A stretch of 64,000 bases of DNA, taken from the NCBI GenBank assembly GCA_021784555.1, contig JAJYHY010000002.1, forward strand, positions 17,604 through 81,603. The letters run 5' to 3'. Under the pieces are notes generated by a model. That model saw only the letters and a list, made by a program, of their open reading frames with translations. It ran no database searches and was not told where the DNA came from. The DNA comes from a bacterium. GTDB taxonomy: Bacteria; Verrucomicrobiota; Verrucomicrobiia; Limisphaerales; UBA8199. Shown in pieces: positions 23 through 27,058 of the stretch (positions within the stretch are counted from its first letter, which is position 1; each line of letters opens with the position of its first letter). Position numbers and translations under genes: made by a program.

Positions 23-556
23 ATGGGCAAGGCATCACGAATTAGAGCTCAACGACGGCTGCGGCACGGCGGCGAAACAGCTCTGCTGCAGCGCGTACGA
101 AACCTGGGCCTTGCGCCGGAGGTGCGGGTGCTCAAAGACCCGGCTGGTTTGGAGAAGATGTCGGAGGTCATCGAGGAGTTCGCCGGGCCACTGCTGGAGC
201 ACTGTTCCCGAATGGACCAACGGCGCGGGGCCATTGGGCTGGCAGTAACGGCTTGGAACCTGAGCCTCTTGCCGGACGAGGAGCGCGAGAAGGAGTTGAG
301 CCAGCACATACTCCCGAAGACCGGGCCGGAGATGAAAGACATCCTCACGACGATGGTCAAGCGCAAGCAGGCTCTTTATCGGGACATCCAGCGATTAATC
401 CTCGATTACGAAATCACCGACAAGGGAAAGGACGCCTTGCGCCTGACCGTCATCTCCGCTGTTCCCCGCGACAAGATCCCGGCCGACCAACTTGACGGCA
501 TTCCGAGCCAGCCAGGCCGCGACTTGCAGCGTGGTCGTGAGCAACGCGGCCGGTAG
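23..556 (+). CDS. hypothetical protein
   Basis: 177-aa ORF with helical, charged composition; no family recognised; antisense ORFs in the same place look spurious. Confidence 0.5.
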   Translation: MGKASRIRAQRRLRHGGETALLQRVRNLGLAPEVRVLKDPAGLEKMSEVIEEFAGPLLEHCSRMDQRRGAIGLAVTAWNLSLLPDEEREKELSQHILPKTGPEMKDILTTMVKRKQALYRDIQRLILDYEITDKGKDALRLTVISAVPRDKIPADQLDGIPSQPGRDLQRGREQRGR

Positions 557-617
557 CGTCATCAGAGATGCGCACCGAAGGCGGGGTGCTGAAAAAGACC
601 TGTCGTGCAGGTCACTG

Positions 618-2204
618 TCACTGCAACTTCACGGGGATGCCCATCGTCTGGGAGAAAAGGCGGGAGAGGGTCTCCCCAGTGCGCTCGCCGGCAACATTCT
701 GGCCGAACTGGATCGTCGCCGATACGTCAAAGCTGTGGATCATCCGGCAGTAGGCCCCGTTCACCATCACCCCCAGCAATTCTCCGTGTTCGCTGAAAAC
801 CAAGTCGCCTCGCGACGGGTTGAATTTGCCAAACAGGCCTTTGATGAAGCTCCGGTCCAGCTTCAAGTATCCGGGTGTCGAGGTGTCCATTTGAAAGTTG
901 CATTCCCCATAATAACTTTCTCGCGCCCCCACCAGCACGGCTTGCTGGAACCGGAACGGGTCCGACGAAATTGTATAGACTTTGCACCCCAACTCTTGCG
1001 CTTCTTCCTTGGTTACCGGAATCAGCACCACACGCGGGTCCGGCCACGCAAACGACACGGAGCGGATGGGGACGGCGCGCGTCTTGCCCTCCAGCATTCC
1101 ACTCAGCCCATCCCAATCCCGGCCCGGGCTGGAGAAAGCCAAGGGCGTATCCTGGACGTGGCACAAGGCGAACGTCCGGGTGCCGTCAGTCACGAGAATC
1201 GTCTCGGTGGTTCGCCGTTTGTTCGAGCCCAAAAACCCGTTGCGGACGGCATGAAATGCGGCTTCGACCCGGTTGGAAAGGAAATCGCTGAAGATGGTGT
1301 TGGGAACCAGCGGCGTGTTTTGATGAATCTCCTTGGCCAACTCGCCGGAATTGGTCGCCAGGACTTTGACCCCCTGGGCTAATTGTTCCGCATGGTGAGC
1401 CAGTTGCGCGTTCTGTTTCCGTTGCGACTGCACCTCAGTTTGCATCTGGGCGACCTGCTGAGTGGCGGCTTGCGTCTGGGTCTCGGCGACCAGGAGCTTG
1501 CCGGTCAATTGCTCCTTCTCGGCCTGCACCACGGTGTTGCTGTCCGCCAGGTACGTGATCTGCCGTTGGAGGTCGGCGGCCTTGGCAACCTGCCTCTGGA
1601 CCTCATTTTTCATGGCGGAGAGTTTCTCCTTGGAGATGACATCCTGGATGTTGGCCTGGTGCAGTCTCTCGTTCAAGGCATCCAGCCGTTGTTGCGCGGA
1701 GACGTACTGATGTTCCAGGTAGCCTCGCTGTTCCTGAAGCTGCTGGGCCTCCGCATTCTGCGTGTTCAGCCCCTGCTTCAGGGTCTCAACCAGCCGTTCA
1801 CGTTCCACCAGCAAGGCTTCTCTTTGACTGGCCTCACGCCGTGCCTCGACCAGGAGGGCCTGTTTCTGACTGGCCTCTTGCTGAGCTTGGGCGAGCAGGG
1901 CCTGGTTGCGGCTAGCCTCCTCTTCGGCCTTGGCGAGCAGGGCCTGGTTGTTGCTGGCGGCCTCTTTGGCCTTGGCCAACTCCCGCAGGAGGGCCTGTTG
2001 GCCTTTTTGTTGCTCGTTCAAGGCCTGACGCATCACGGCGGCCAAGTCGTTCCTGCCGCTGTTCGTTTCGGTAGTTTGCGGCTCCAGCCTGCCCACGCGT
2101 TCAGTATCGGCGGGATTGCGAATCCGGTTGATATCGACGTTGGAAAACGCCAACAGGCTCAGCAACAGGAAGTCGCACATGACGATTAGGATGCTCCGGT
2201 TCAT
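618..2204 (-). CDS. membrane-anchored coiled-coil protein, possible degenerate trypsin-like C-terminal domain
   Basis: N-terminal TM (MNRSILIVMCDFLLLSLLAFSNV), long coiled coil with 14-aa repeats, C-terminal GDLVFSEHGELLGVMVNG; overlaps the upstream gene by 4 nt. Confidence 0.75.
   Translation of the reverse strand: MNRSILIVMCDFLLLSLLAFSNVDINRIRNPADTERVGRLEPQTTETNSGRNDLAAVMRQALNEQQKGQQALLRELAKAKEAASNNQALLAKAEEEASRNQALLAQAQQEASQKQALLVEARREASQREALLVERERLVETLKQGLNTQNAEAQQLQEQRGYLEHQYVSAQQRLDALNERLHQANIQDVISKEKLSAMKNEVQRQVAKAADLQRQITYLADSNTVVQAEKEQLTGKLLVAETQTQAATQQVAQMQTEVQSQRKQNAQLAHHAEQLAQGVKVLATNSGELAKEIHQNTPLVPNTIFSDFLSNRVEAAFHAVRNGFLGSNKRRTTETILVTDGTRTFALCHVQDTPLAFSSPGRDWDGLSGMLEGKTRAVPIRSVSFAWPDPRVVLIPVTKEEAQELGCKVYTISSDPFRFQQAVLVGARESYYGECNFQMDTSTPGYLKLDRSFIKGLFGKFNPSRGDLVFSEHGELLGVMVNGAYCRMIHSFDVSATIQFGQNVAGERTGETLSRLFSQTMGIPVKLQ
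1791..1958 (-). repeat. four tandem 42-bp / 14-aa coding repeats (ASxxQALLxxAxxE)
   Basis: ASNNQALLAKAEEE / ASRNQALLAQAQQE / ASQKQALLVEARRE / ASQREALLVERERL. Confidence 0.85.
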
Positions 2205-3913
2205 GAGGAAGCAGCGAGCCCCGAGGTGGTCACCGGCGCCGCGGTCTCGGCGGAATTGGCTTCCGCCTCCAGCAGCAACCGCCGCCGCAGTGGGCGCACG
2301 TTGAATATCTTGAGAACGGCCACGAAGATGATGCCGAAGGAAGTCGAGGAATAGGCCGCCATCAAGCTCAGCGTAATAATGCGAAACGACACCAATATGA
2401 GGCAGATAATCGTTCCCACAAAGCCGAGGTAAAGGCCGGCATCGAACAGGTTCTCCTCGTTTTCGAGGAGCTTGAGTTTGACACGCGCCACGACGCGCTG
2501 GCGCCGGATTTCCGCCAGCTTAATCATGCAGGCGGTGTAGATGAGCCCCTGCAGGACAAAAAACAGGAGCAGCGTTAAGAGACTGTATAATTGGTCATTC
2601 ATATTCAAGGTATGAGGGCCGGATTTTCCCATCGGGGCCGTTAGCGTTGCCAAGGACAAGCGCAGCCGGAACGGCAGTATGGCTCTCTGGCTTTGCTGAG
2701 CGAGAAACGGCTCGCTCAGCAGCAGTACCACCAACAGGAAACCGAACGCAAACAAAACTTCGCGCGCGAGGTGGAAACCGCGCACCTGCAGCGGCGCCTC
2801 CAGAGGCGAAATAGGACGGCGCATGAAATGGCCCGCCGCGGCTATCCAGAAGCCGCCGGAAAAATAGAGCAACCACTTCAAACCCAGCGCCAGCCAGGGC
2901 ATGCGCCAGGAGTAATCCACCGCGACGGTCGCAAACTGCGCAAAGGGCGTGTACTGTGTTAGCCGGTTCCAAAACGGCGCCGGATGCGGACGTTTCTCCC
3001 CCGCCACCATCGCCTTGAGCGCCCCGGCGCCCAACCGCGCGCTTTGGGCCAGGTCGTTGAAGCCCGTTTTGCTGTATCTCATCAAGTAGTTCCCGACGGC
3101 CGCCGGCTCGCCGGAAAGGCGCACCGTGGCGAACAGCAGCGGCAGTTGCTTGCCGGCATTGCGGACGCGATCCGCCAGCACACGCAGAGTCTGGGGACTC
3201 TCAATCTGGCTGACAAACACCACCAGTTGGTCCCAATTGAACCGCTGGCCCAACGACATCAAATCCAGCAGCAGTTGCTCGAGCGGCTGCGATCCCTTGC
3301 CGGCGTTTGCCTCCGCGGCCATTTCCGCAATCGCGGGGCTGAATCCAAGCCGACCCTGCTCCAGCAGCAGACCGCAAAGCGAGACCGCGGTGTCCAGGGC
3401 CTGGCCGGAGGCCGATGGCGAGGGAGAAAAGATAACCGTGTTAGTCAACAGCCGGCATCCCAGCAGCGCTTGCACACTGGCCTGGCGCGAGGTCGATAAG
3501 AACTCCAGCACCTTCGCCCGGCTTGAGTCGCGCACCAAAAAATCGGTTATCGGCTTGGTCCCAGCCGTCGCGGCGTCGTCATTCGTCCCAAAGAGACGGT
3601 CCAACAGCGGCGCCGCGCCGCCCCAACGCAATAGCTCCGGCTGCTCCATCGCCAGGTTCCCAACCGCAAGGCCCAGTTTCCGCGTCCCCGCGAGGTGTTG
3701 CTGTCGGGCGACTTCAAGGCACATCTCCGCCGCGCCCAATTGCTGTTCCTTGACCAGTGTCAAGCCCTCATCCACAATCGAAGGCGAACCCCTCCCCGCG
3801 ACGCTCAGCACCGTATCATCAATGGCCCGCAGGTGGGCCGGCATCAGCAGGCCACACACGAGCATCGCCAAACCGAGCAAGGCACACAGCGTAAACAAAA
3901 ACCAGCGACTCAT
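2201..3913 (-). CDS. multi-TM membrane protein, hypothetical
   Basis: 570-aa ORF with an N-terminal signal/TM and several C-terminal TM segments; overlaps the coiled-coil gene downstream. Confidence 0.7.
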   Translation of the reverse strand: MSRWFLFTLCALLGLAMLVCGLLMPAHLRAIDDTVLSVAGRGSPSIVDEGLTLVKEQQLGAAEMCLEVARQQHLAGTRKLGLAVGNLAMEQPELLRWGGAAPLLDRLFGTNDDAATAGTKPITDFLVRDSSRAKVLEFLSTSRQASVQALLGCRLLTNTVIFSPSPSASGQALDTAVSLCGLLLEQGRLGFSPAIAEMAAEANAGKGSQPLEQLLLDLMSLGQRFNWDQLVVFVSQIESPQTLRVLADRVRNAGKQLPLLFATVRLSGEPAAVGNYLMRYSKTGFNDLAQSARLGAGALKAMVAGEKRPHPAPFWNRLTQYTPFAQFATVAVDYSWRMPWLALGLKWLLYFSGGFWIAAAGHFMRRPISPLEAPLQVRGFHLAREVLFAFGFLLVVLLLSEPFLAQQSQRAILPFRLRLSLATLTAPMGKSGPHTLNMNDQLYSLLTLLLFFVLQGLIYTACMIKLAEIRRQRVVARVKLKLLENEENLFDAGLYLGFVGTIICLILVSFRIITLSLMAAYSSTSFGIIFVAVLKIFNVRPLRRRLLLEAEANSAETAAPVTTSGLAASS

Positions 3914-17439: not shown

Positions 17440-17515
17440 TGGTGGAGCCGAGGCGATTCGAACGCCCGACCTTCTCGTTGCGAACGAGACGCTCTGCCAA
17501 CTGAGCTACGACCCC
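17440..17515 (-). tRNA. tRNA-Ala(CGC)
   Basis: reverse complement GGGGTCGTAGCTCAGTTGGCAGAGCGTCTCGTTCGCAACGAGAAGGTCGGGCGTTCGAATCGCCTCGGCTCCACCA; anticodon loop TTCGCAA, encoded CCA. Confidence 0.95.
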
Positions 17516-17605: not shown

Positions 17606-18667
17606 ATGAAAGAGACGCACGCACGCAACGGCGAATTTGGCCGCGTGGCTGAAAATCTGTTCCGATATTCTTCAAGCGGGGTTTACTATGCCCGCTTCCA
17701 GGCAAATGGCAAGGACATTTGTCGGAGTTTGCGCACAACAGATCGCGCCTTGGCCAAACGGCGGCTTGCCGATGAGATGGAGAAGGCTTCGAAGGTTGAC
17801 CCCAACATGGGAAAGCTGTCGCTCAGCGAGTTGCTTCGGCTTTACGATGAACATCTCGCGCAGTGCGCGCCAAAAACGGTGGCGACGCGGCGCTCGATCG
17901 CGAGATGTTTCAAGGAAACCTGGCGGCATGGACTGGAGCTTGCGGTTCAACAAATCAATGCCGGCCAACTCGAGCTCTGGCTCGCCGGCAAGAAGCGGGA
18001 GGTCAAGACCGCGACCTTCAACGAATACGCGAGGTTCCTTCGCCAGTTGTTCAACCTTGCGCTGAAGCTGCGCGCGATCGCCGCTTCCCCGGCCGCCGAC
18101 CTCCACGGAATTCGCGTCGAAAGCCCGATTCGCGCGACCCCCACCTGGGAGCAATTCCATCAGATCGTGAAGGACATCCGGGATCTAAAGCTGAACCGTG
18201 ATGCCGAGGACACCGCCGACCTCGTGGAGTTCATGGGGTTAGCAGGCGTCGGAACGGCAGAATGCGCCAACCTCCGAGGAGAGCACATCGATCTGGCGAA
18301 GAAGCGAATTAACCTCTACCGCGCAAAGACCGACACCGGCTACTCAATTCCGATATTTCCGCAGCTCTTGCCCTTCCTGCAGAAACTGGAGGCCAACGGG
18401 CGTATCCGCCTGGGGCAGACTGTCTTTGCGGTGAAGGATCCAAAGAAATCGTTGGCGGCGGCCTGCAAACGGCTGAACATGGCACACTTTTCGCCGCGCT
18501 CCCTACGTCGCTGTTTCATCACCCGCGCCATCGAGATGGGGATCGATTTCAAAACGATCTCGGCGTGGCAGGGACACCGCGACGGTGGAGTTCTTATCGC
18601 CAAGACCTACGGCCACTTGCGCAGCGAGCACAGCGAAGCGATGGCGCAACGGTTGGTCGCCCAGTGA
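17606..18667 (+). CDS. tyrosine recombinase/integrase-like protein
   Basis: N-terminal SAM-like domain, FSPRSLRRCFITRAIEMGIDFKTISAWQGHRDGGVLIAKTYGHL; the ORF-track start at 17333 runs through the tRNA, so the ATG at 17606 is preferred. Confidence 0.85.
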   Translation: MKETHARNGEFGRVAENLFRYSSSGVYYARFQANGKDICRSLRTTDRALAKRRLADEMEKASKVDPNMGKLSLSELLRLYDEHLAQCAPKTVATRRSIARCFKETWRHGLELAVQQINAGQLELWLAGKKREVKTATFNEYARFLRQLFNLALKLRAIAASPAADLHGIRVESPIRATPTWEQFHQIVKDIRDLKLNRDAEDTADLVEFMGLAGVGTAECANLRGEHIDLAKKRINLYRAKTDTGYSIPIFPQLLPFLQKLEANGRIRLGQTVFAVKDPKKSLAAACKRLNMAHFSPRSLRRCFITRAIEMGIDFKTISAWQGHRDGGVLIAKTYGHLRSEHSEAMAQRLVAQ

Positions 18668-19184
18668 CCGCCTCACGCGCCGCCCCGGTGCCCGTTTGCC
18701 TCGAGCACCGGCGCTTTGGCGCGGATCGAGAAAGCGTCGCAGCCGACACCGTTCAGCACGCGGTCGGTACTACGCGTAATGGACCGTTGAGCTTTTGTCT
18801 TGTCCCATGCTAAGTGCTGAAAGGGGGCAGGCTGTCCCAAAGGCTTCATGCCTTCTAAGTCGAAACCGGTTTTTGGCTCCAAATGGTCTCAGCGAGGTAT
18901 CACCCAGACCCACAATAAGTTACGCCGCTTTTTGGGAGGCACTTTTCGGACCCATTTACCCCCCAAAAGGCCCCGAAAATGGGCAAGTAGTGTCAGATCG
19001 CAGCATCAGATCTGGCCGTTGTCGCTTATTCCACAATCCGGCTTTTTGTTGCCATGGCGTCAGGTCGTCAGGTTCCCGCCGTGAGAGACGACCGGTTGGC
19101 CTTTTGGAACCAGGATGCTGACCGCGCAACACTCAAGGTTTAGACTACCGGCAGGGCCGGAACCGCAGGGTCAACGAGGCGCTG

Positions 19185-19427
19185 GTGCAGAATGTGGAGA
19201 CGGCGCGTGCGGTGCTTACAACCGCACCGCAGGGCCAGGCAGTCGACGCGCAGTTCCTGAAGTGGCTGATGGGTCACCAGAAGGAGGCCGGCGACTTTAC
19301 GGCGGTTTCCGGGTTGGTGGATCAGCTCAACGATAATTCGGCGGGCAGGATGACGACGCGGGAGATTGCGGCGCGGGTGCAGCAGGCGCAGCAGGCCGGG
19401 ACCGCGAGGGCAACGGCGTCCGGGTAG
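19185..19427 (+). CDS. small hypothetical protein
   Basis: 80-aa ORF with plausible composition, followed by a terminator-like hairpin. Confidence 0.5.
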   Translation: MQNVETARAVLTTAPQGQAVDAQFLKWLMGHQKEAGDFTAVSGLVDQLNDNSAGRMTTREIAARVQQAQQAGTARATASG

Positions 19428-19459
19428 CGGGCGAACAGGCAAAAAGCCGCAGCAAAAAG

Positions 19460-19486
19460 CCGCGGCCCAGCAACGGGCCGCGGTTT
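19460..19486. terminator. intrinsic terminator-like hairpin between convergent genes
   Basis: CCGCGGCCC-AGCAAC-GGGCCGCGG-TTT. Confidence 0.7.
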
Positions 19487-19503
19487 AGTGGTGTTTGGGG
19501 GGG

Positions 19504-20592
19504 CTAGTGACGCGCGTGGTTCCGGTTCCTGCAGAAGCGCCTGAAGTCCTCGTTGCTGAGGGAGGCGCTCAGGAACTCGATGTCTTTTGCGGTCAGCTCT
19601 GCCGGTGGATGTGCGGGCGGGTTAGTGTGTGACATCAGCTCGTCTGCGATGGCCTTGGCGATTGGGAGGCCCGTGAGGTTCTCCACCCAGGCGAATTGGC
19701 CGTTTGCGTTAGCCTCAAGGAAGACCGGCTCTCCTTTAAGGGGAACGATGAAGTCGAAGCAGGCGAAATTCAGGTTGAACTCGCGCATGTAGTCATGGAT
19801 GCGGCTGTGAAGATTCGGAGCTTCCGTGGCCGTGTGAGTGAGATTTTGGGTGTCGAACCTGTAGTCGTCGGCGGTGAGGTCTCCGGGGCGCGCCTGGATG
19901 CGGCACGTGAATATTCTGTCGCCGACGCAGGTCACCCGCAGCTCGCATGCCTTGGGGATGAATGGCTGGAAGGTTGTCGACAGGTTGGCGATCTTGTCTT
20001 TCACGGCCAGAAGTTCGGCACGGGTGACGCGACGTGTAAACAGGCCGTAGCTGGTCTGCGTGCCCGTGCCCTGGGCGGCCGACAAGGCGCCGAGGCTCTT
20101 TATGGCGAGGTCGCAATTGCTCTTTGCGGCGAACCGAAGGGCGGCGTCCGGGCTGTTTGTCACGAGAGTCTCCGGTACGCGGAAGCCAACCTTGGCAGCG
20201 ACCTTGAGCTGAAGCATCTTGCGGTGAGCGATTCTGGCGTGGAAGGGGTTGTTGATCCAAGGGACGTGGGGAAGGAGGGCGTATAGGTTATCGAGAATCT
20301 CCCGGAACTCGGATTGGACGTAGTCGAGTGAGCCGGCATCGAGTTGGAAATGGCCGACTTGTGGCGTTTCCGGTTTGCGGTACCAGACCGCCTGCACATC
20401 CTGAAGGTTGAACTTCCGTCCGCTGTCCTTGATGTGCAGGGAGCCTGTGCCGAGAGCCGGCTCAATCGTGAGGTCAAGGTTCTGGGCGATGTCTTCGGTG
20501 TTGAGGCGAACCCAGGGCGCTCCGGCTGCGTCCAAGTGGCGGGTCACGGCCCCGATGTGGCCGTCCGGCTTGCTGGTGATAATGAGAATCAT
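19504..20592 (-). CDS. ATP-grasp ligase of MvdD/graspetide-maturase type
   Basis: MILIITSKPDGHIGAVTRHLDAAGAPWVRLNTEDI...VQAVWYRKPETP...FDFIVPLKGEPVFLEANANGQFAWVENLTGLPIAKAIADEL. Confidence 0.85.
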   Translation of the reverse strand: MILIITSKPDGHIGAVTRHLDAAGAPWVRLNTEDIAQNLDLTIEPALGTGSLHIKDSGRKFNLQDVQAVWYRKPETPQVGHFQLDAGSLDYVQSEFREILDNLYALLPHVPWINNPFHARIAHRKMLQLKVAAKVGFRVPETLVTNSPDAALRFAAKSNCDLAIKSLGALSAAQGTGTQTSYGLFTRRVTRAELLAVKDKIANLSTTFQPFIPKACELRVTCVGDRIFTCRIQARPGDLTADDYRFDTQNLTHTATEAPNLHSRIHDYMREFNLNFACFDFIVPLKGEPVFLEANANGQFAWVENLTGLPIAKAIADELMSHTNPPAHPPAELTAKDIEFLSASLSNEDFRRFCRNRNHARH

Positions 20593-20662
20593 ATGTTGAT
20601 GTTACGGCCCGCCGCAGGCTGTCCCACGGCGGGCCACTTGGTTAGCAGTCAGTCCCGGTCAA

Positions 20663-20890
20663 CTAGTCGTCTTTCTTCGTGTCGGTGCGCGATTTGCTGA
20701 TGATCCCGCCGACGGATTCCTCGTACTGGCAGGTGCTGTACCCGCGGGAGGACGCGAATCTCGTCAGTTGGGACACCGGATCGTAGGCGAATGCCGCCTC
20801 GCGATCGGAGTCTTGGATGGTGATGTGATAGGGCAGTGCCGCCATGAGCGGGACCAGCCCTCCGGTTTCCATTTGCTTTGTTACTTGCAT
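20663..20890 (-). CDS. putative graspetide (ATP-grasp-modified RiPP) precursor peptide
   Basis: 75 aa directly upstream of the ATP-grasp gene: ...DREAAFAYDPVSQLTRFASSRGYSTCQYEESVGGIISKSRTDTKKDD; YDPxxQ motif and S/T/K plus D-rich tail. Confidence 0.7.
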   Translation of the reverse strand: MQVTKQMETGGLVPLMAALPYHITIQDSDREAAFAYDPVSQLTRFASSRGYSTCQYEESVGGIISKSRTDTKKDD

Positions 20891-21058
20891 TGTTTTTATG
20901 TTTCGATTTACTGCTTTGTCCGGCGGTCGTTGTTCTCACCCCGAGAACCTGATCCGCCGAACTACGTTAAAATTGCGGTGGGCTGATTTGTTGGTCAGGA
21001 TGGCAACATCCGGCAAGAGACGGCAGGAAGCGACACGAAACGACAGGAGCGGAAATCG

Positions 21059-22561
21059 ATGGCACGGCGGACGAAGTCTGTGGGGAAGCGGCGGGGCAAG
21101 CGGTCTCCGGGTAGAAAGCTTGTACCGGAGGAGGTGCTGTGGATTGAGGGCCAAATTGCCAAGAGGGGGTGGAACAAGACCGAGTTTTACGCTGCCTATG
21201 AGACTGCTAACAAAGGCAAGCCGCTGCCGCGTGACCCCAAGCGCCAACTTCAACGGATTTTCCAGGAGAAGGACCCCACGCCCTTGACGCCGCTGGTCCA
21301 GGCGAACCTCGCAGCGACGCTGAGCATGACGTTTGAGGACTTCGATGCGGGACTGAGGGGCTGTTTGGCTGTGCGAGGCGGTCGTCGGAAGGGAGCGGTG
21401 CCGGACCAGGGCAGCAGGATAATTGGTGCGGAGACAGCCGGAGCAAACGCCAGTGTGATCGAGCGTTTTCAGGAATCCGCGCAGAGATTCGATGAACAAC
21501 TTCTGGCCGACTATTTGACAGGCGTGGGGTTTGCGGAGTGGATGGGCAATAGAGACGATTGGGAGAAGACTGTTCGGCAAGGTAGAGAGTGGCTGGAAGC
21601 GCATCCTGAGGACCTCTACTGTCGTGGAATGTTCCTTTGGTCCATTTTGAACAAGGGTAACCCGAGCGAGATGGTTGGTATCCTCAAAGAGACCGGGCGG
21701 TGGCTGGCTTCTGCTCTACCGCCCGCTGCGGGTTCTGCTGGCCATTACGATTCGGGAGATTGGCAGCGGATGCTTGAAGAGAGGATCTCGCAGCTCAGCA
21801 GCGGGAGCGTCGAGCACCCTAGCTTCGTGCGTTGGCATTTGGAGGATACGCTCGCAAGGGCTGCTCTGCTTCGGTGCCTGAGATTCCAGGAAGGGCGTTC
21901 ACAGCTTCAGAGCGAGTTCACGAAGCTGGGCGGCGATGTGGAGAAGCAGATGCCGATTAGGGCACTGTTCGGCTCGACCAAACCGGGGGAAGTGGATTCC
22001 TGGGTGGCCGCAGCGGTGGCGCAGGCGGATCGGTGGGCTGGTTTCGAGCAGGAAAGCGGCTTAGCACGGTTGTGCCTGATTTGGTTTACTGGACAACAGG
22101 GCCAGGTCGACAGGATGCAGTTTGTAATCGAGCAGTCGCGCCGGTGGCTTGAGCGGAACCCGAGGCATACCTTTGTGCGATGGGCGACGCTCTGGCTGGC
22201 TGGGCTCTGTCCGGAGTGCGAGGCGACTACGCAGCTCATCGAAGAATCGGCGTTGTGGCTGGCGGGGGATGCGCCCGACGACGAGCGGTTGGCGCGGATG
22301 GGATTCTTGTGGCTGGTGGGAGCGAAAGGAACCGCCGAGCAGGTGCGACAAGGGGCCGCGCAAACTGCGAGGTGGCTAAAAGCGCACCCAGCGGATGATT
22401 TCATCCGCGTCGTGTACCTTCTGTTTCTCATCCGACGGAGGGCGGCGCCTGAAGAGCGAAAGAGGGTGATTGGAGAAACGCGCAGGTGGCTGCGGCAGCA
22501 CGGTGATGCTTATGGAATCACGGGGCTGGCCTTGCGCCTCTGTGAATGTGCGCGCAGCTGA
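21059..22561 (+). CDS. HTH-like N-terminus plus TPR-like helical-repeat protein
   Basis: repeat units RRWLERNPRHTFVRWATLWLAGLC / LWLAGDAPDDERLARMGFLWLVGAKGT / RWLKAHPADDFIRVVYLLFLIRRRA / RRWLRQHGDAYGI. Confidence 0.7.
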   Translation: MARRTKSVGKRRGKRSPGRKLVPEEVLWIEGQIAKRGWNKTEFYAAYETANKGKPLPRDPKRQLQRIFQEKDPTPLTPLVQANLAATLSMTFEDFDAGLRGCLAVRGGRRKGAVPDQGSRIIGAETAGANASVIERFQESAQRFDEQLLADYLTGVGFAEWMGNRDDWEKTVRQGREWLEAHPEDLYCRGMFLWSILNKGNPSEMVGILKETGRWLASALPPAAGSAGHYDSGDWQRMLEERISQLSSGSVEHPSFVRWHLEDTLARAALLRCLRFQEGRSQLQSEFTKLGGDVEKQMPIRALFGSTKPGEVDSWVAAAVAQADRWAGFEQESGLARLCLIWFTGQQGQVDRMQFVIEQSRRWLERNPRHTFVRWATLWLAGLCPECEATTQLIEESALWLAGDAPDDERLARMGFLWLVGAKGTAEQVRQGAAQTARWLKAHPADDFIRVVYLLFLIRRRAAPEERKRVIGETRRWLRQHGDAYGITGLALRLCECARS

Positions 22562-22579
22562 TGACGCTCGCGTGGATGC

Positions 22580-23173
22580 ATGAAGTTTAGCTTCGTATCG
22601 TTTGCGGTGATAGTCTTGGCGGTCGTAGTGTCTGGGTTTGCATCTTTCGTGGACGGAACCCTCACCAGCAAGCGGGTGACCATGGGGTTCCTGAACCACG
22701 GCGGGATGTGGGGCGATCTTATCATCATGTCGACAGTCGCCGGATTCGTGGTCCCTCACCTTGTCAGGAGCCGAGTTGTCGTTCTTTCGGCGTTGTGCAT
22801 CGCAGTTGCGGTTACTGTGATTGCCCACCATCAGTGGGGGAGGTGGGACACGACCACTGGGCACATGTTTCCTGCGCACTCGGGGGGTAAATGGTACTTG
22901 GACATCAGTGTGGCTGGATGGCTGCATGTGCTTGTAATGACCGCGTTGCTGACCATCATGCTGGTCTATGCGGCATCCCCCTTGCCGGTCAGGGTCATCG
23001 TCGTTGTATCGGTCCTGGTCACGATGCATCTTTTCTTGGCCATGGTACAGCCGGGGTGGTTCTGCACAGGGCAACTGTGGACGTGGAGGAATTTCGGCCC
23101 GCCGCTGGTGGCATCGGGGATGGTTTGGGCCGTCGCTGTGTGGAAGATTCGACTGGCTGATGGGGGCTTCTAG
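22580..23173 (+). CDS. multi-TM membrane protein, hypothetical
   Basis: 197 aa, several hydrophobic helices, 18 bp after the preceding gene. Confidence 0.6.
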   Translation: MKFSFVSFAVIVLAVVVSGFASFVDGTLTSKRVTMGFLNHGGMWGDLIIMSTVAGFVVPHLVRSRVVVLSALCIAVAVTVIAHHQWGRWDTTTGHMFPAHSGGKWYLDISVAGWLHVLVMTALLTIMLVYAASPLPVRVIVVVSVLVTMHLFLAMVQPGWFCTGQLWTWRNFGPPLVASGMVWAVAVWKIRLADGGF

Positions 23174-23600
23174 AAGCGGAGAAGGTGCTGTCTCTGATGA
23201 ACTTCGGGCTCGCGGAGCTGGCACTGGACCCCGGTGTTTTCCAGTTGGGGTGGCGAGTCAGCGGCCGGTGAGGTCGTGGCTAGGGCGGGGGCGTGGAGTT
23301 CGACTACGGTCCATTGGCGGGGCCTTTGCGGAGGCGGTTGGGGATGAGGCGGTCGTGGCGTAAGCGGGTGCCAACGTGGAAAGCAGCGCCGTCAACGTAG
23401 ATGGCGAGGTAGGGGTGGGGGACCGCGACGTCGGTGTGGAGAGGGGTGGCGCGCCGTCGCCTGGGGCTACGGCCACTTGGGTTTGGGAGTTGAAGCCGTG
23501 TTGCTGGAACAGGCGGAGGAAGCGCAGTTCCAGGGGAGAGCCAACGCCAGCGGCAAATGCCTCCACCCAGGGGCGTGGGTTGTGGTGTCGCGCTGTTCGA
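23170..23600 (-). pseudogene. frameshifted nuclease-like (Vsr/DUF559-type) C-terminal domain remnant
   Basis: three frames together read NPRPWVEAFAAGVGSPLELRFLRLFQQHGFNSQTQVAVAP | LHTDVAVPHPYLAIYVDGAAFHVGTRLRHDRLIPNRLRKG | WTVVELHAPAL. Confidence 0.65.
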
Positions 23601-23695
23601 GCGGAGCGGCGTCCGGTAGGTTTCGCGGATCGCGGTCTGCCTGCATTCTGCGACGCGAGAGCCCCAACCAGCGGAGTCGGAAAGGGACGAATAGC

Positions 23696-24112
23696 TCAGG
23701 CCGTAGTTGTGCGCGGCGAGAGATCATCGGTTCCGTCGGAATTGCGAGGAGCGAAACGTGTCTGGAGTTTGGCGAGGAGGTCGTAAAGAGGTCGGTCGCT
23801 TTTGGTCGGGCCAGCCCACCAGGCGAGGACTTCGAGGGCGGCGTTCTTCAAGCAGTGGTCGAATCGGCGGAGTTCCAGGCCGCCATCGCCGACGAAACCG
23901 GTGGGATCGGGTTGCCCGGCGAGCCAGAAGAGGAAATTGCGCGCGGCCTGGCTCCCTCCGGTGTCTTCGCAGGCGGCGCGGTAAAGCAAATCCAACTCCT
24001 TTTCCGGCACGGGCGCCGGGGGCATCCTCAGCAGGCGCTTAAGCTCGGCAAGAACGGCGTCCCGTTCGGGTTTGGCTTGGCCGGCGGGAATGTCGAGGGA
24101 GATTCTGGTCAT
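23696..24112 (-). CDS. hypothetical protein (DUF7673-like)
   Basis: LLYRAACEDTGGSQAARNFLFWLAGQPD...RRFDHCLKNAALEVLAWWA. Confidence 0.5.
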   Translation of the reverse strand: MTRISLDIPAGQAKPERDAVLAELKRLLRMPPAPVPEKELDLLYRAACEDTGGSQAARNFLFWLAGQPDPTGFVGDGGLELRRFDHCLKNAALEVLAWWAGPTKSDRPLYDLLAKLQTRFAPRNSDGTDDLSPRTTTA

Positions 24113-24277
24113 GGTAGTTGTCCTTTGCTCCCGATTTCGGTCCAGCTTTTCGGCTGCGTGCGAGGCTGAATCACATCAGGAGACCGGGAAAGAGATGAGG
24201 ATTGATTTTGGGGCTCAATTCCTCGAAAGCCGTGAACGGTAGTAAGAACCGCGAGGGGAACTGGCCGAGGGCATCGG

Positions 24278-24586
24278 TCAGCTCTGCGGGTCATCCTGTT
24301 TCTCGTGGGCCTGCTCGAAGATCCACGTGTGCGCTGTGTCTGCGACCTTGGCGACGAGGAGCAGATCGTCGCGGCCAAAGGAGGAAGTGGAAGCCCACTG
24401 GTCCTGCTCTTTGTCCTTGTAGAGTCGTGGGGCGCCGAAATAATCACAGTCATTGATGGTAGCCAAATCAAAGCGTACCCGGTTGGGGCTGGCGCCTGGA
24501 TATGGGAGGGAGCATGATGCCTCAGAACAGGAGAGTAGAGCTGCGATGGCCGGACCGTGCCGATTGGGGCGTCGAGGCGGGGCCAA
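24278..24586 (-). CDS. hypothetical accessory protein
   Basis: RVRFDLATINDCDYFGAPRLYKDKEQDQWASTSSFGRDDLLLVAKVADTAHTWIFEQAHEKQ; protein-like composition. Confidence 0.5.
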   Translation of the reverse strand: MAPPRRPNRHGPAIAALLSCSEASCSLPYPGASPNRVRFDLATINDCDYFGAPRLYKDKEQDQWASTSSFGRDDLLLVAKVADTAHTWIFEQAHEKQDDPQS

Positions 24587-24629
24587 GATTGAGAATTGCG
24601 GGTTGCCGATCCGGTTGGTTGAAGCGCGG

Positions 24630-25670
24630 TCAGTTTTTCTTTAGCCAGGCTTCGATTTCGTCCTTGGCGTAACCGGCGGATTTCAACAACTCGGTGGTTG
24701 AGGCTTCAACCCTGGACCGGAGTTTTGTGTCAGTTTCGAGGCGGCTGTCCACATTCTCTATGTTTTGGATCGCTGCGAGGAGGTCGAGTGCAAGTTCTTT
24801 CTCTCCCGGCGGCGGCTCGGTTTGGGTCTTAATTTTAGAGAGGCCTGAGGTGTCGGTGAGAGGGGATGCATATGGGCGGAACAAAAAGCTTAGCGAGACC
24901 ATGTCGGGCGAACCTGGTTCGACGGAGTAGCAGTACCCGCGCTGCATTTGGATGCTCCACGGGTTCAGTTCCCTGATCAGCCGTAGCAGCCATTTCCCGA
25001 CGCCTAGCCCGAAGAGGGTGAAGAAGTCCGATTCCGAGAGTGCTCCGAAGAAAGTGCAGTCAGCAATATCCTGTCCAGCCGCTGAGGGAATGATCTCGAT
25101 CAGGCGGGCTGCAAAGTCGGGATGGTCGGTGCTGTTCGCACGAACGCAACCGGATAGTTTCTGCATGTCTTCTTCCTCGACCAAGTCCTTGCTCACTCGT
25201 GAGGTGACGAAGAGCAGCCATGGCTCCGTTCTGGAATTGAGTTGGTACTCCATCAGGACGTTGAGGGCATCGTAGTAGCTCGGTCCGCTCTTGCCTTTGC
25301 TGCCGGGGGGCGACACCGACTCACATAGGTCTAAATTCACGACGTCGAAGTCGCCGTAATTTTGGAGATGCCGGTAGGCTTGCGATTGCCTGTTCGCGAT
25401 CTGCTGGAACAGGTCGTGGATGACAGTCGAGGCTCGCCAGATGCCCGGCAGGCTGTTCACTTCGTTGGTGGCGACATTCAACCACGTGTTTGGCTGTGAG
25501 GCGCCGTAGGACTCGTGAAGCCCGAGGTACTTTACATGTTTTCCGAAGCGTAAAAGACATTGGTGCAGCATGCGCACATCCAGGAGGTCATCCCCGGGCA
25601 GGGATAGGTAGTGGAGGGGCCTGTCGTCCTTAAATTTCAGGAACTTGGTGCAGAGCTTTCTGATGTCCAC
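24630..25670 (-). CDS. uncharacterised protein adjacent to a DNA methyltransferase
   Basis: 346-aa ORF; RPLHYLSLPGDDLLDVRMLHQCLLRFGKHVKYLGL...DFDVVNLDLCESVSPPG. Confidence 0.75.
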   Translation of the reverse strand: MDIRKLCTKFLKFKDDRPLHYLSLPGDDLLDVRMLHQCLLRFGKHVKYLGLHESYGASQPNTWLNVATNEVNSLPGIWRASTVIHDLFQQIANRQSQAYRHLQNYGDFDVVNLDLCESVSPPGSKGKSGPSYYDALNVLMEYQLNSRTEPWLLFVTSRVSKDLVEEEDMQKLSGCVRANSTDHPDFAARLIEIIPSAAGQDIADCTFFGALSESDFFTLFGLGVGKWLLRLIRELNPWSIQMQRGYCYSVEPGSPDMVSLSFLFRPYASPLTDTSGLSKIKTQTEPPPGEKELALDLLAAIQNIENVDSRLETDTKLRSRVEASTTELLKSAGYAKDEIEAWLKKN

Positions 25671-25864: not shown

Positions 25865-27058
25865 CTAGAGGACTGATGCCAGGCTACTGAAAAAACATCG
25901 ACTGCTGCAGAAACATCGGTGCCCATCCTCAATTTTAGGCCGGTTTTCGCAAAAACTCCGAAAACTCACGCCGGATCCAAGATCCAGCGCCGGCAGCTCG
26001 ATTGCCTTATTGGCGTGTTCGCGGCTTTCAACGTGCGAGCGGAGCAGGCTGTGCCGGATGTTGACCATGTCCCTATGCGATTTGGCCGTCAGCAAGCACA
26101 GCTCGAGGGCGTACGTCCGCGAGTAATCGTACCGGTTAAGGTAGGGCGGTGAGGTAATGATGGCGGCCACCCGGCCCTCGTACCGCACCGGGAGACACAT
26201 CTCCCGCGCATCGCCCTGCCTAACGACAGCCTTTGTCTTTGGCTCCTGTCCGAACGTCCGCAGCTCTGAGAGGTCGGCCGCCATCCTGCCCAGTATCGAG
26301 CGCAAGGCCTCCCGCACTGGCGGAATTTTCTTGTCCACCAGGCGAAGGAACTGTCCGTCCTTCGAAGTGCGGCTGACACTCTCCAGGATACTGAGCAATC
26401 CCAGCAGGAGAAAATGCCGGAACGGGGGCTGAAACTTCTCAGTTTCTTCCTTGAAAAACAGCAACTCGGCCTGGGTTTCCTTCGTAAAGGCCAAATTGAT
26501 GATGCGCACGTCGCGCGGGAAGGTGGACTTTGGCTCTCGAAATGGCGCCTCCAGTAGTTTCTGGCTCGCGCTGAGTATTTCATCCAGGTCCGGCCATTTG
26601 GTCAATTTGGCCCTGGCGACAAAGACGGAGGTGGGCAGGATATCAACCCCGATGCCGTGCAGGCCCAATTCCTGAGCGGCCAGAAGCGTTGTGCCACAGC
26701 CGACGAACGGGTCAAAGACAATGTCTCCCTTTTGCAGACCGAATTGGCGAACCAGGCGTACAACCAACTCGCGGGAAAAACCCTCCTTGTATTTGAACCA
26801 GTTATAGACCGGCAGGCCTTTGTTAGGGACATAAGTCACCAGCCGCCGCCAATCCAGGCGATGTTCGAATGCGTCGCGGTACTTTTGCTCAAGGCGGACT
26901 CGCTCCCGCTGCGAAGGGCTGCCTGTTGCTATCGGAAGCGGACTGAGGTTTCGTTTGGTCCCCGCGGCCGGAACCTCCAGGAACGTCAGTTGTTCCGCAT
27001 CCTTGAGCACGAGCGCCCGGTCAGGTTCCGGCAGATTAGAGTTTGAGGCTAATTTCAT
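25865..27058 (-). CDS. DNA methyltransferase with TSPPY motif (N4-cytosine/N6-adenine class), atypical C-terminus
   Basis: FDPFVGCGTTLLAAQELGLHGIGVDI and IITSPPYLNRYDYSRTYALEL. Confidence 0.85.
   Translation of the reverse strand: MKLASNSNLPEPDRALVLKDAEQLTFLEVPAAGTKRNLSPLPIATGSPSQRERVRLEQKYRDAFEHRLDWRRLVTYVPNKGLPVYNWFKYKEGFSRELVVRLVRQFGLQKGDIVFDPFVGCGTTLLAAQELGLHGIGVDILPTSVFVARAKLTKWPDLDEILSASQKLLEAPFREPKSTFPRDVRIINLAFTKETQAELLFFKEETEKFQPPFRHFLLLGLLSILESVSRTSKDGQFLRLVDKKIPPVREALRSILGRMAADLSELRTFGQEPKTKAVVRQGDAREMCLPVRYEGRVAAIITSPPYLNRYDYSRTYALELCLLTAKSHRDMVNIRHSLLRSHVESREHANKAIELPALDLGSGVSFRSFCENRPKIEDGHRCFCSSRCFFSSLASVL

Follow-up and report, generated by a model that had tools for sequence, protein, structure and literature searches.

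A putative two-gene graspetide locus with a conserved precursor family in Verrucomicrobiota

We analyzed a window of 64,000 nucleotides from a Verrucomicrobiota genome in which two neighboring genes on the minus strand encode an ATP-grasp ligase and, ahead of it, a small peptide (Table 1). The original prediction had proposed the pair as a graspetide locus, and its description of the two genes was accurate throughout: both sets of coordinates are exact, the ligase carries the quoted motifs MILIITSKPDGHIGAVTRHL, VWYRKP, and EANANGQFAWVENLTGLPIAKAIADEL, and the small open reading frame (ORF) carries YDPVSQ along with the tail SRGYSTCQYEESVGGIISKSRTDTKKDD. The gap from precursor to ligase, given there as about 70 bp, is 70 nt in the window and 70 to 83 nt over the three homologous loci that we found. 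The hairpin in this gap sits at the same position in all three (z = −3.1 in the window, −5.3 and −5.2 in the relatives), and its stem sequence in the window differs from that of the relatives. From the short gap with its hairpin and the terminator-like hairpin past the ligase, we read the precursor and ligase as a putative two-gene operon, although a search for a sigma-70-like promoter found none.

Table 1. Features of the candidate locus, in window coordinates
Feature	Position	Strand	Remarks
Precursor peptide gene, 75 aa	20663..20890	-	Family common to two relatives; homologs in the same place in G048 and G092; dN/dS 0.32-0.51
Leader motif PLMAALPY, residues 14-21	20828..20851	-	PL[MI]AALP[YF] in 3/3; predicted role
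Leader motif YDPVSQL, residues 36-42	20765..20785	-	Y[DN]PxxQL in 3/3; common to tgmA-type precursors
Predicted core, residues 52-75: STCQYEESVGGIISKSRTDTKKDD	20666..20737	-	Invariant positions in 3/3
G+C-rich hairpin between precursor and ligase, no U tract	20606..20635	-	Putative function
Graspetide synthetase, MvdD/tgmB-like ATP-grasp ligase, 362 aa	19504..20592	-	PF21068; TIGR04187, 237 bits; catalytic residues intact
Intrinsic terminator-like hairpin with T-rich tail CTTTTTGCTG, just past ligase stop	19460..19483	-	10 pairs, 9 of them G-C

Ligase and precursor families

The N terminus of the ligase matches the MvdD pre-ATP-grasp domain in Pfam (PF21068; 51.4 bits, E = 1.4e-13, cut-off of 27), and the match to the RimK ATP-grasp domain is weak (PF08443; 22 bits). 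Among NCBIfam models, TIGR04187 (GRASP_SAV_5884, or tgmB) scores highest (237 bits, E = 2.8e-70), followed by MvdC (180 bits), MvdD (158 bits), and grasp-with-spasm (97 bits), versus 34 bits and E = 2.6e-8 for rimK_fam. The ligase does not reach the curated cut-off of TIGR04187 (350 bits), nor that of any other graspetide ligase model in NCBIfam; it therefore belongs to the enzyme class as a divergent representative and formally to none of those models. Its best PDB matches are microviridin and graspetide ligases (5ig8, 7mgv or CdnC, 5ig9, 7m4s, and 9bou; E = 1e-28 to 1e-31), with RimK-type chains appearing only at 6e-4. The catalytic residues are intact: K125, K165, R219, D243, R245, D280, E293, and N295 are identical throughout an alignment of 20 graspetide-type ligases and E. 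coli RimK, while the graspetide ligases all share R72 (in the W/Y-x-R-R/K-P motif) and G298, neither of which is found in E. coli RimK. The triplet D243-Y-R245 is the counterpart of the DFR or DxR motif, which has been described as critical to the activity of graspetide synthetases (PMC13097080). In a maximum-likelihood tree, the window ligase and two relatives form a fully supported clade with a long stem. The tree gives no support for any sister group or for a union with the tgmB clade, and E. coli RimK lies on a very long outgroup branch. An AlphaFold model of the ligase from three sequences was of unusable quality (pLDDT, 37.5), and defense-gene models matched neither the ligase nor the flanking proteins without known family.

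Close ligases occur in only 3 of 320 genomes of the same order (G000, G048, and G092), where the ligases of the two relatives are 58% identical to that of the window at E values of <1e-125; one further genome of these 320, G263, encodes a distant graspetide ligase. Strong matches to a profile of the small ORFs (E = 1e-39 to 1e-42) are confined to G000, G048, and G092, and the next-best match (2e-4) lies inside a 2,117-residue frame. Weak matches elsewhere (E = 2e-4 to 0.1), mostly within long or broken frames, were judged to be due to chance. In each of them the small ORF precedes its ligase at an equivalent position and on the same strand. The original prediction had set a test beforehand, namely, that homologous ligases should be accompanied by a conserved small ORF at this site, and it holds in all three genomes of the 320 that have such a ligase. 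The dN/dS values of the small ORF are 0.32, 0.51, and 0.32, and DNA identity among the three loci is 56 to 83% within it versus 42 to 47% upstream. By these measures the small ORF is a real gene under purifying selection, in a family of three known members, two of which are close to each other.

The precursor has no family in NCBIfam or Pfam and no match in the plasmids searched. TIGR04186 (GRASP_targ, or tgmA; curated cut-off of 25 bits) matches neither the precursor nor anything else in its own genome, and the control genomes are equally without a match. These results are consistent with the novel core of the original prediction and with a precursor family that is new relative to the libraries searched. 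As judged by these searches, then, the enzyme class is known and the precursor family is absent from the libraries.

Leader motifs and predicted core

Of the window's 725 stop-to-stop frames that are 50 aa or longer, the small ORF alone contains the motif Y[DN]PxxQ, and this motif arises in 0.1% of shuffled copies of the window peptide (0.007 to 0.1% over the family precursors); its presence is therefore beyond chance. The original prediction had likened it to a YDPxTQ-type leader motif of ATP-grasp targets, a lead that proved productive: all 14 of the tgmA-type precursors that we compared, encoded beside tgmB-type ligases on actinobacterial plasmids, carry [YWLI]DxxxQ ahead of the core, this being a feature derived here from those same 14 precursors. 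The window sequence YDPVSQ fits the pattern, and the two relatives have YNPxTQ, a D/N exchange. A profile comparison between the window family and tgmA-type precursors aligns exactly this YDPxxQ-type motif, with weak statistics (P = 0.0055), and the likely precursor at a distant locus of the same class contains YYDQRTQL (L011). Farther toward the N terminus, PLMAALPY and its counterpart PLIAALPF both match Phhx(1,2)h, a leader motif that contacts the ligase and is present in about half of known precursors (Makarova et al., PMC8939145). Within the window family, P-[FY]-x-[LI] sits 16 residues ahead of Y[DN]PxxQ; a Streptomyces precursor (L051) has PFAL 19 residues ahead of YDRKQQ.

In the predicted core, S52, T53, S59, S65, D70, T71, K73, D74, and D75 are invariant in all three precursors, and the acids at positions 57 and 58 are kept as E or D. 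The resulting donor/acceptor pattern is STx3[ED][ED]S ... S ... DTxKDD, with conservation that reaches the last residue. The locus has two of the features by which the graspetide class is recognized, namely, an MvdD-type pre-ATP-grasp domain with the catalytic residues and an adjoining precursor that combines a leader motif with a core of Ser/Thr/Lys and Asp/Glu residues; the third, omega-ester or omega-amide rings between side chains of the product, is predicted. We consider it likely, at a probability of roughly 85%, that this is a minimal two-gene graspetide locus, related to tgmAB and without tgmC, whose ligase would form rings from Ser/Thr (perhaps Lys) to Asp/Glu.

Three other explanations bear on the same evidence. 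The ligase could act like RimK, adding free amino acids to the conserved C terminus of the small peptide (KKDD) or to another protein. Its ATP-grasp half does weakly match RimK in both Pfam and NCBIfam, its catalytic residues are common to RimK, and the C terminus is the most conserved part of the peptide. Against this stand the good match of the N-terminal MvdD pre-ATP-grasp domain, the scores of the graspetide models, which exceed that of rimK_fam 3 to 7 times, the graspetide-type R72 and G298, the position of RimK far outside in the tree, and the conservation of internal S, T, E, and D positions in addition to the terminal ones. The original prediction had named grouping with RimK- or glutathione-type enzymes as the outcome that would count against it; the ligase has the MvdD pre-ATP-grasp domain and does not group with RimK, and we regard a RimK-like activity as very unlikely. 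A slimmer chance still attaches to the small ORF being a linked regulator or leader ORF and not the substrate, with the ligase modifying a peptide encoded elsewhere. The small ORF has no family-model match, and its link to the ligase is drawn from sequence, which would suit such a role; the exact co-occurrence in 3 of 320 genomes at the same position and strand, the conserved donors and acceptors, and the tgmA-like leader motifs argue for a substrate, and a profile search found no second peptide copy above background elsewhere in the genome.

Somewhat easier to entertain, though still improbable, is a synthetase that needs a partner protein, unlinked or neighboring, as rosaritide does. Partner-dependent graspetide systems exist (PMC13097080), and a divergent gene for a 500-aa protein of no known family, at 21059-22561, is adjacent to the pair and could be such a partner. 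The gene upstream of the pair in G048 is not homologous to it, however, and hence no partner is conserved beside the pair.

For the preferred reading, a two-gene graspetide locus, we infer the reaction, ring pattern, export, and role of the locus as follows. The precursor would probably be made in excess over the ligase, and the intergenic hairpin may set the ratio between them. The ligase would bind the leader through PL[MI]AALP[YF] and Y[DN]PxxQ, as suggested by their conservation and by the precedents of microviridin and fuscimiditide. Graspetide synthetases phosphorylate Asp or Glu, after which Ser, Thr, or Lys attacks and one water is lost per ring (PMC13097080). Here the ligase, with ATP, would phosphorylate acidic side chains (Asp or Glu) in the core, which neighboring Ser/Thr residues (possibly Lys73) would then attack to give esters (possibly an amide), again at the cost of one water per ring. 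One cluster might join S52/T53 with E57/E58, a plesiocin-like pair across a three-residue loop, and another might join S65/T71/K73 with D70/D74/D75; we hold both assignments with low confidence. Such local rings are one among several possible donor-acceptor pairings. Fuscimiditide and amycolimiditide, products of related enzymes, have nested ester crosslinks (PMC12291112), which makes a long nested ST...DD hairpin and a pair of local units equally possible. A general protease and an exporter encoded elsewhere would then cut the leader and export the product. A bolder version, which we offer tentatively and think rather doubtful, is that the locus represents an undescribed graspetide group in Verrucomicrobiota, a methyltransferase-free, tgm-like two-gene system in which the STx3[ED][ED]S...DTxKDD core would fold into a tight plesiocin-like unit and a C-terminal Thr/Lys-Asp unit that differ in their crosslinks, and an intergenic RNA hairpin would set the enzyme level.

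Related systems and genomic setting

The known system closest to this locus is tgmAB(C) of Actinomycetota, which pairs a TIGR04186 precursor with a TIGR04187 ligase, the latter being the top-scoring model for the window ligase. In both, the precursor is encoded directly upstream of the ligase and has a leader in which P-[FWY]-x-[LIV] precedes [YWLI]DxxxQ. Unlike tgmAB(C), the window pair scores below the curated cut-offs, lacks the PIMT-type methyltransferase (tgmC), belongs to another phylum, and has a core with paired ST...EE and DTxKDD. The genes adjoin or overlap in the tgm loci that we examined, and so there is little or no intergenic gap, in contrast to the gap of 70 to 83 nt with its hairpin in the window family. 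The graspimiditides fuscimiditide and amycolimiditide are made by ligases related to those of tgmAB(C).

The microviridin ligases MvdC and MvdD (MdnB and MdnC) belong to the same fold family and include the nearest structures (5ig8, 5ig9, and 7mgv), but the window locus has one ligase, not two, and no adjacent acetyltransferase or ABC transporter. Microviridins form graspetide group 1, with the core motif TxKxPSDx[ED][DE]; in an alignment, both this core and the PFFARFL leader are absent from all three precursors. Plesiocin has the core motif TTxxxxEE, and the window family resembles it in placing a hydroxyl-donor pair before an acid pair (STxxx[ED][ED]). The window family differs in its loop of 3 rather than 4 residues, in its single unit rather than tandem repeats, and in its second, different C-terminal cluster.

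No tgmC methyltransferase, protease, transporter, or tailoring enzyme was recognized next to the gene pair, in line with the original prediction, which had seen no transporter or protease nearby. Graspetide groups 27, 28, and 35 are likewise reported to consist of a synthetase and precursor only (PMC13097080). The 500-aa protein at 21059-22561 is encoded on the plus strand, divergently from the precursor. We compared the genes encoded divergently upstream in the window and in G048 as a possible shared regulator and rejected this, the two being unrelated. The placement of the locus in an accessory region stood in part: a tyrosine integrase gene (17606-18667) adjoins a tRNA-Ala gene (17440-17515), and GC skew is strong over 19 to 25 kb (+0.14 to +0.25), which sets this stretch apart within the window, but a search around the integrase turned up no attachment-site repeat. 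By its skew and the nearby integrase and tRNA-Ala, the stretch from 19000 to 25000 is likely an inserted segment. A 346-aa protein of no known family (24630-25670, minus strand) is encoded beside a type II DNA methyltransferase-like gene (25865-27058, minus strand; PADLOC E = 5.7e-64), the sole match to a defense model among the genes checked; the two are possibly a restriction-modification pair.

Graspetides are a source of protease inhibitors and of peptide-stapling enzymes, and a three-member family whose leader and core are conserved right through the final residue offers a small, testable system of one enzyme and one peptide. That tgmA-like leader motifs recur in different phyla suggests an older origin for the leader contact than for the core designs. 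The main text of two graspetide surveys does not name Verrucomicrobiota. Graspetide-type ligases are present in about 1% of the sampled genomes of the same order and class, accompanied by several unrelated precursor types. At the same-order locus in G263 (L004), a distant MvdD-like ligase (1501-2457, plus strand) directly follows a 432-aa protein (157-1455, plus strand) with an M43 metalloprotease domain (Pfam E = 6.9e-15) and about six LKFKEDQPS repeats in its C-terminal part, an arrangement suggestive of a protease to which a graspetide repeat core has been fused. Elsewhere in the class, a 118-aa ORF in G348 (L012, 1145-1501, plus strand) with LGTxxHTxxxAExxDSD-type repeats lies ahead of a graspetide-type ligase and is a probable multi-core precursor. 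Two further loci of the same class, L013 (1255-1491, plus strand) and L014 (2465-2722, minus strand), have another common precursor type, with the leader TPFL[FL]R[FY]A and the C terminus KK[CA]DIEKGED[MQ]KDRRMW.
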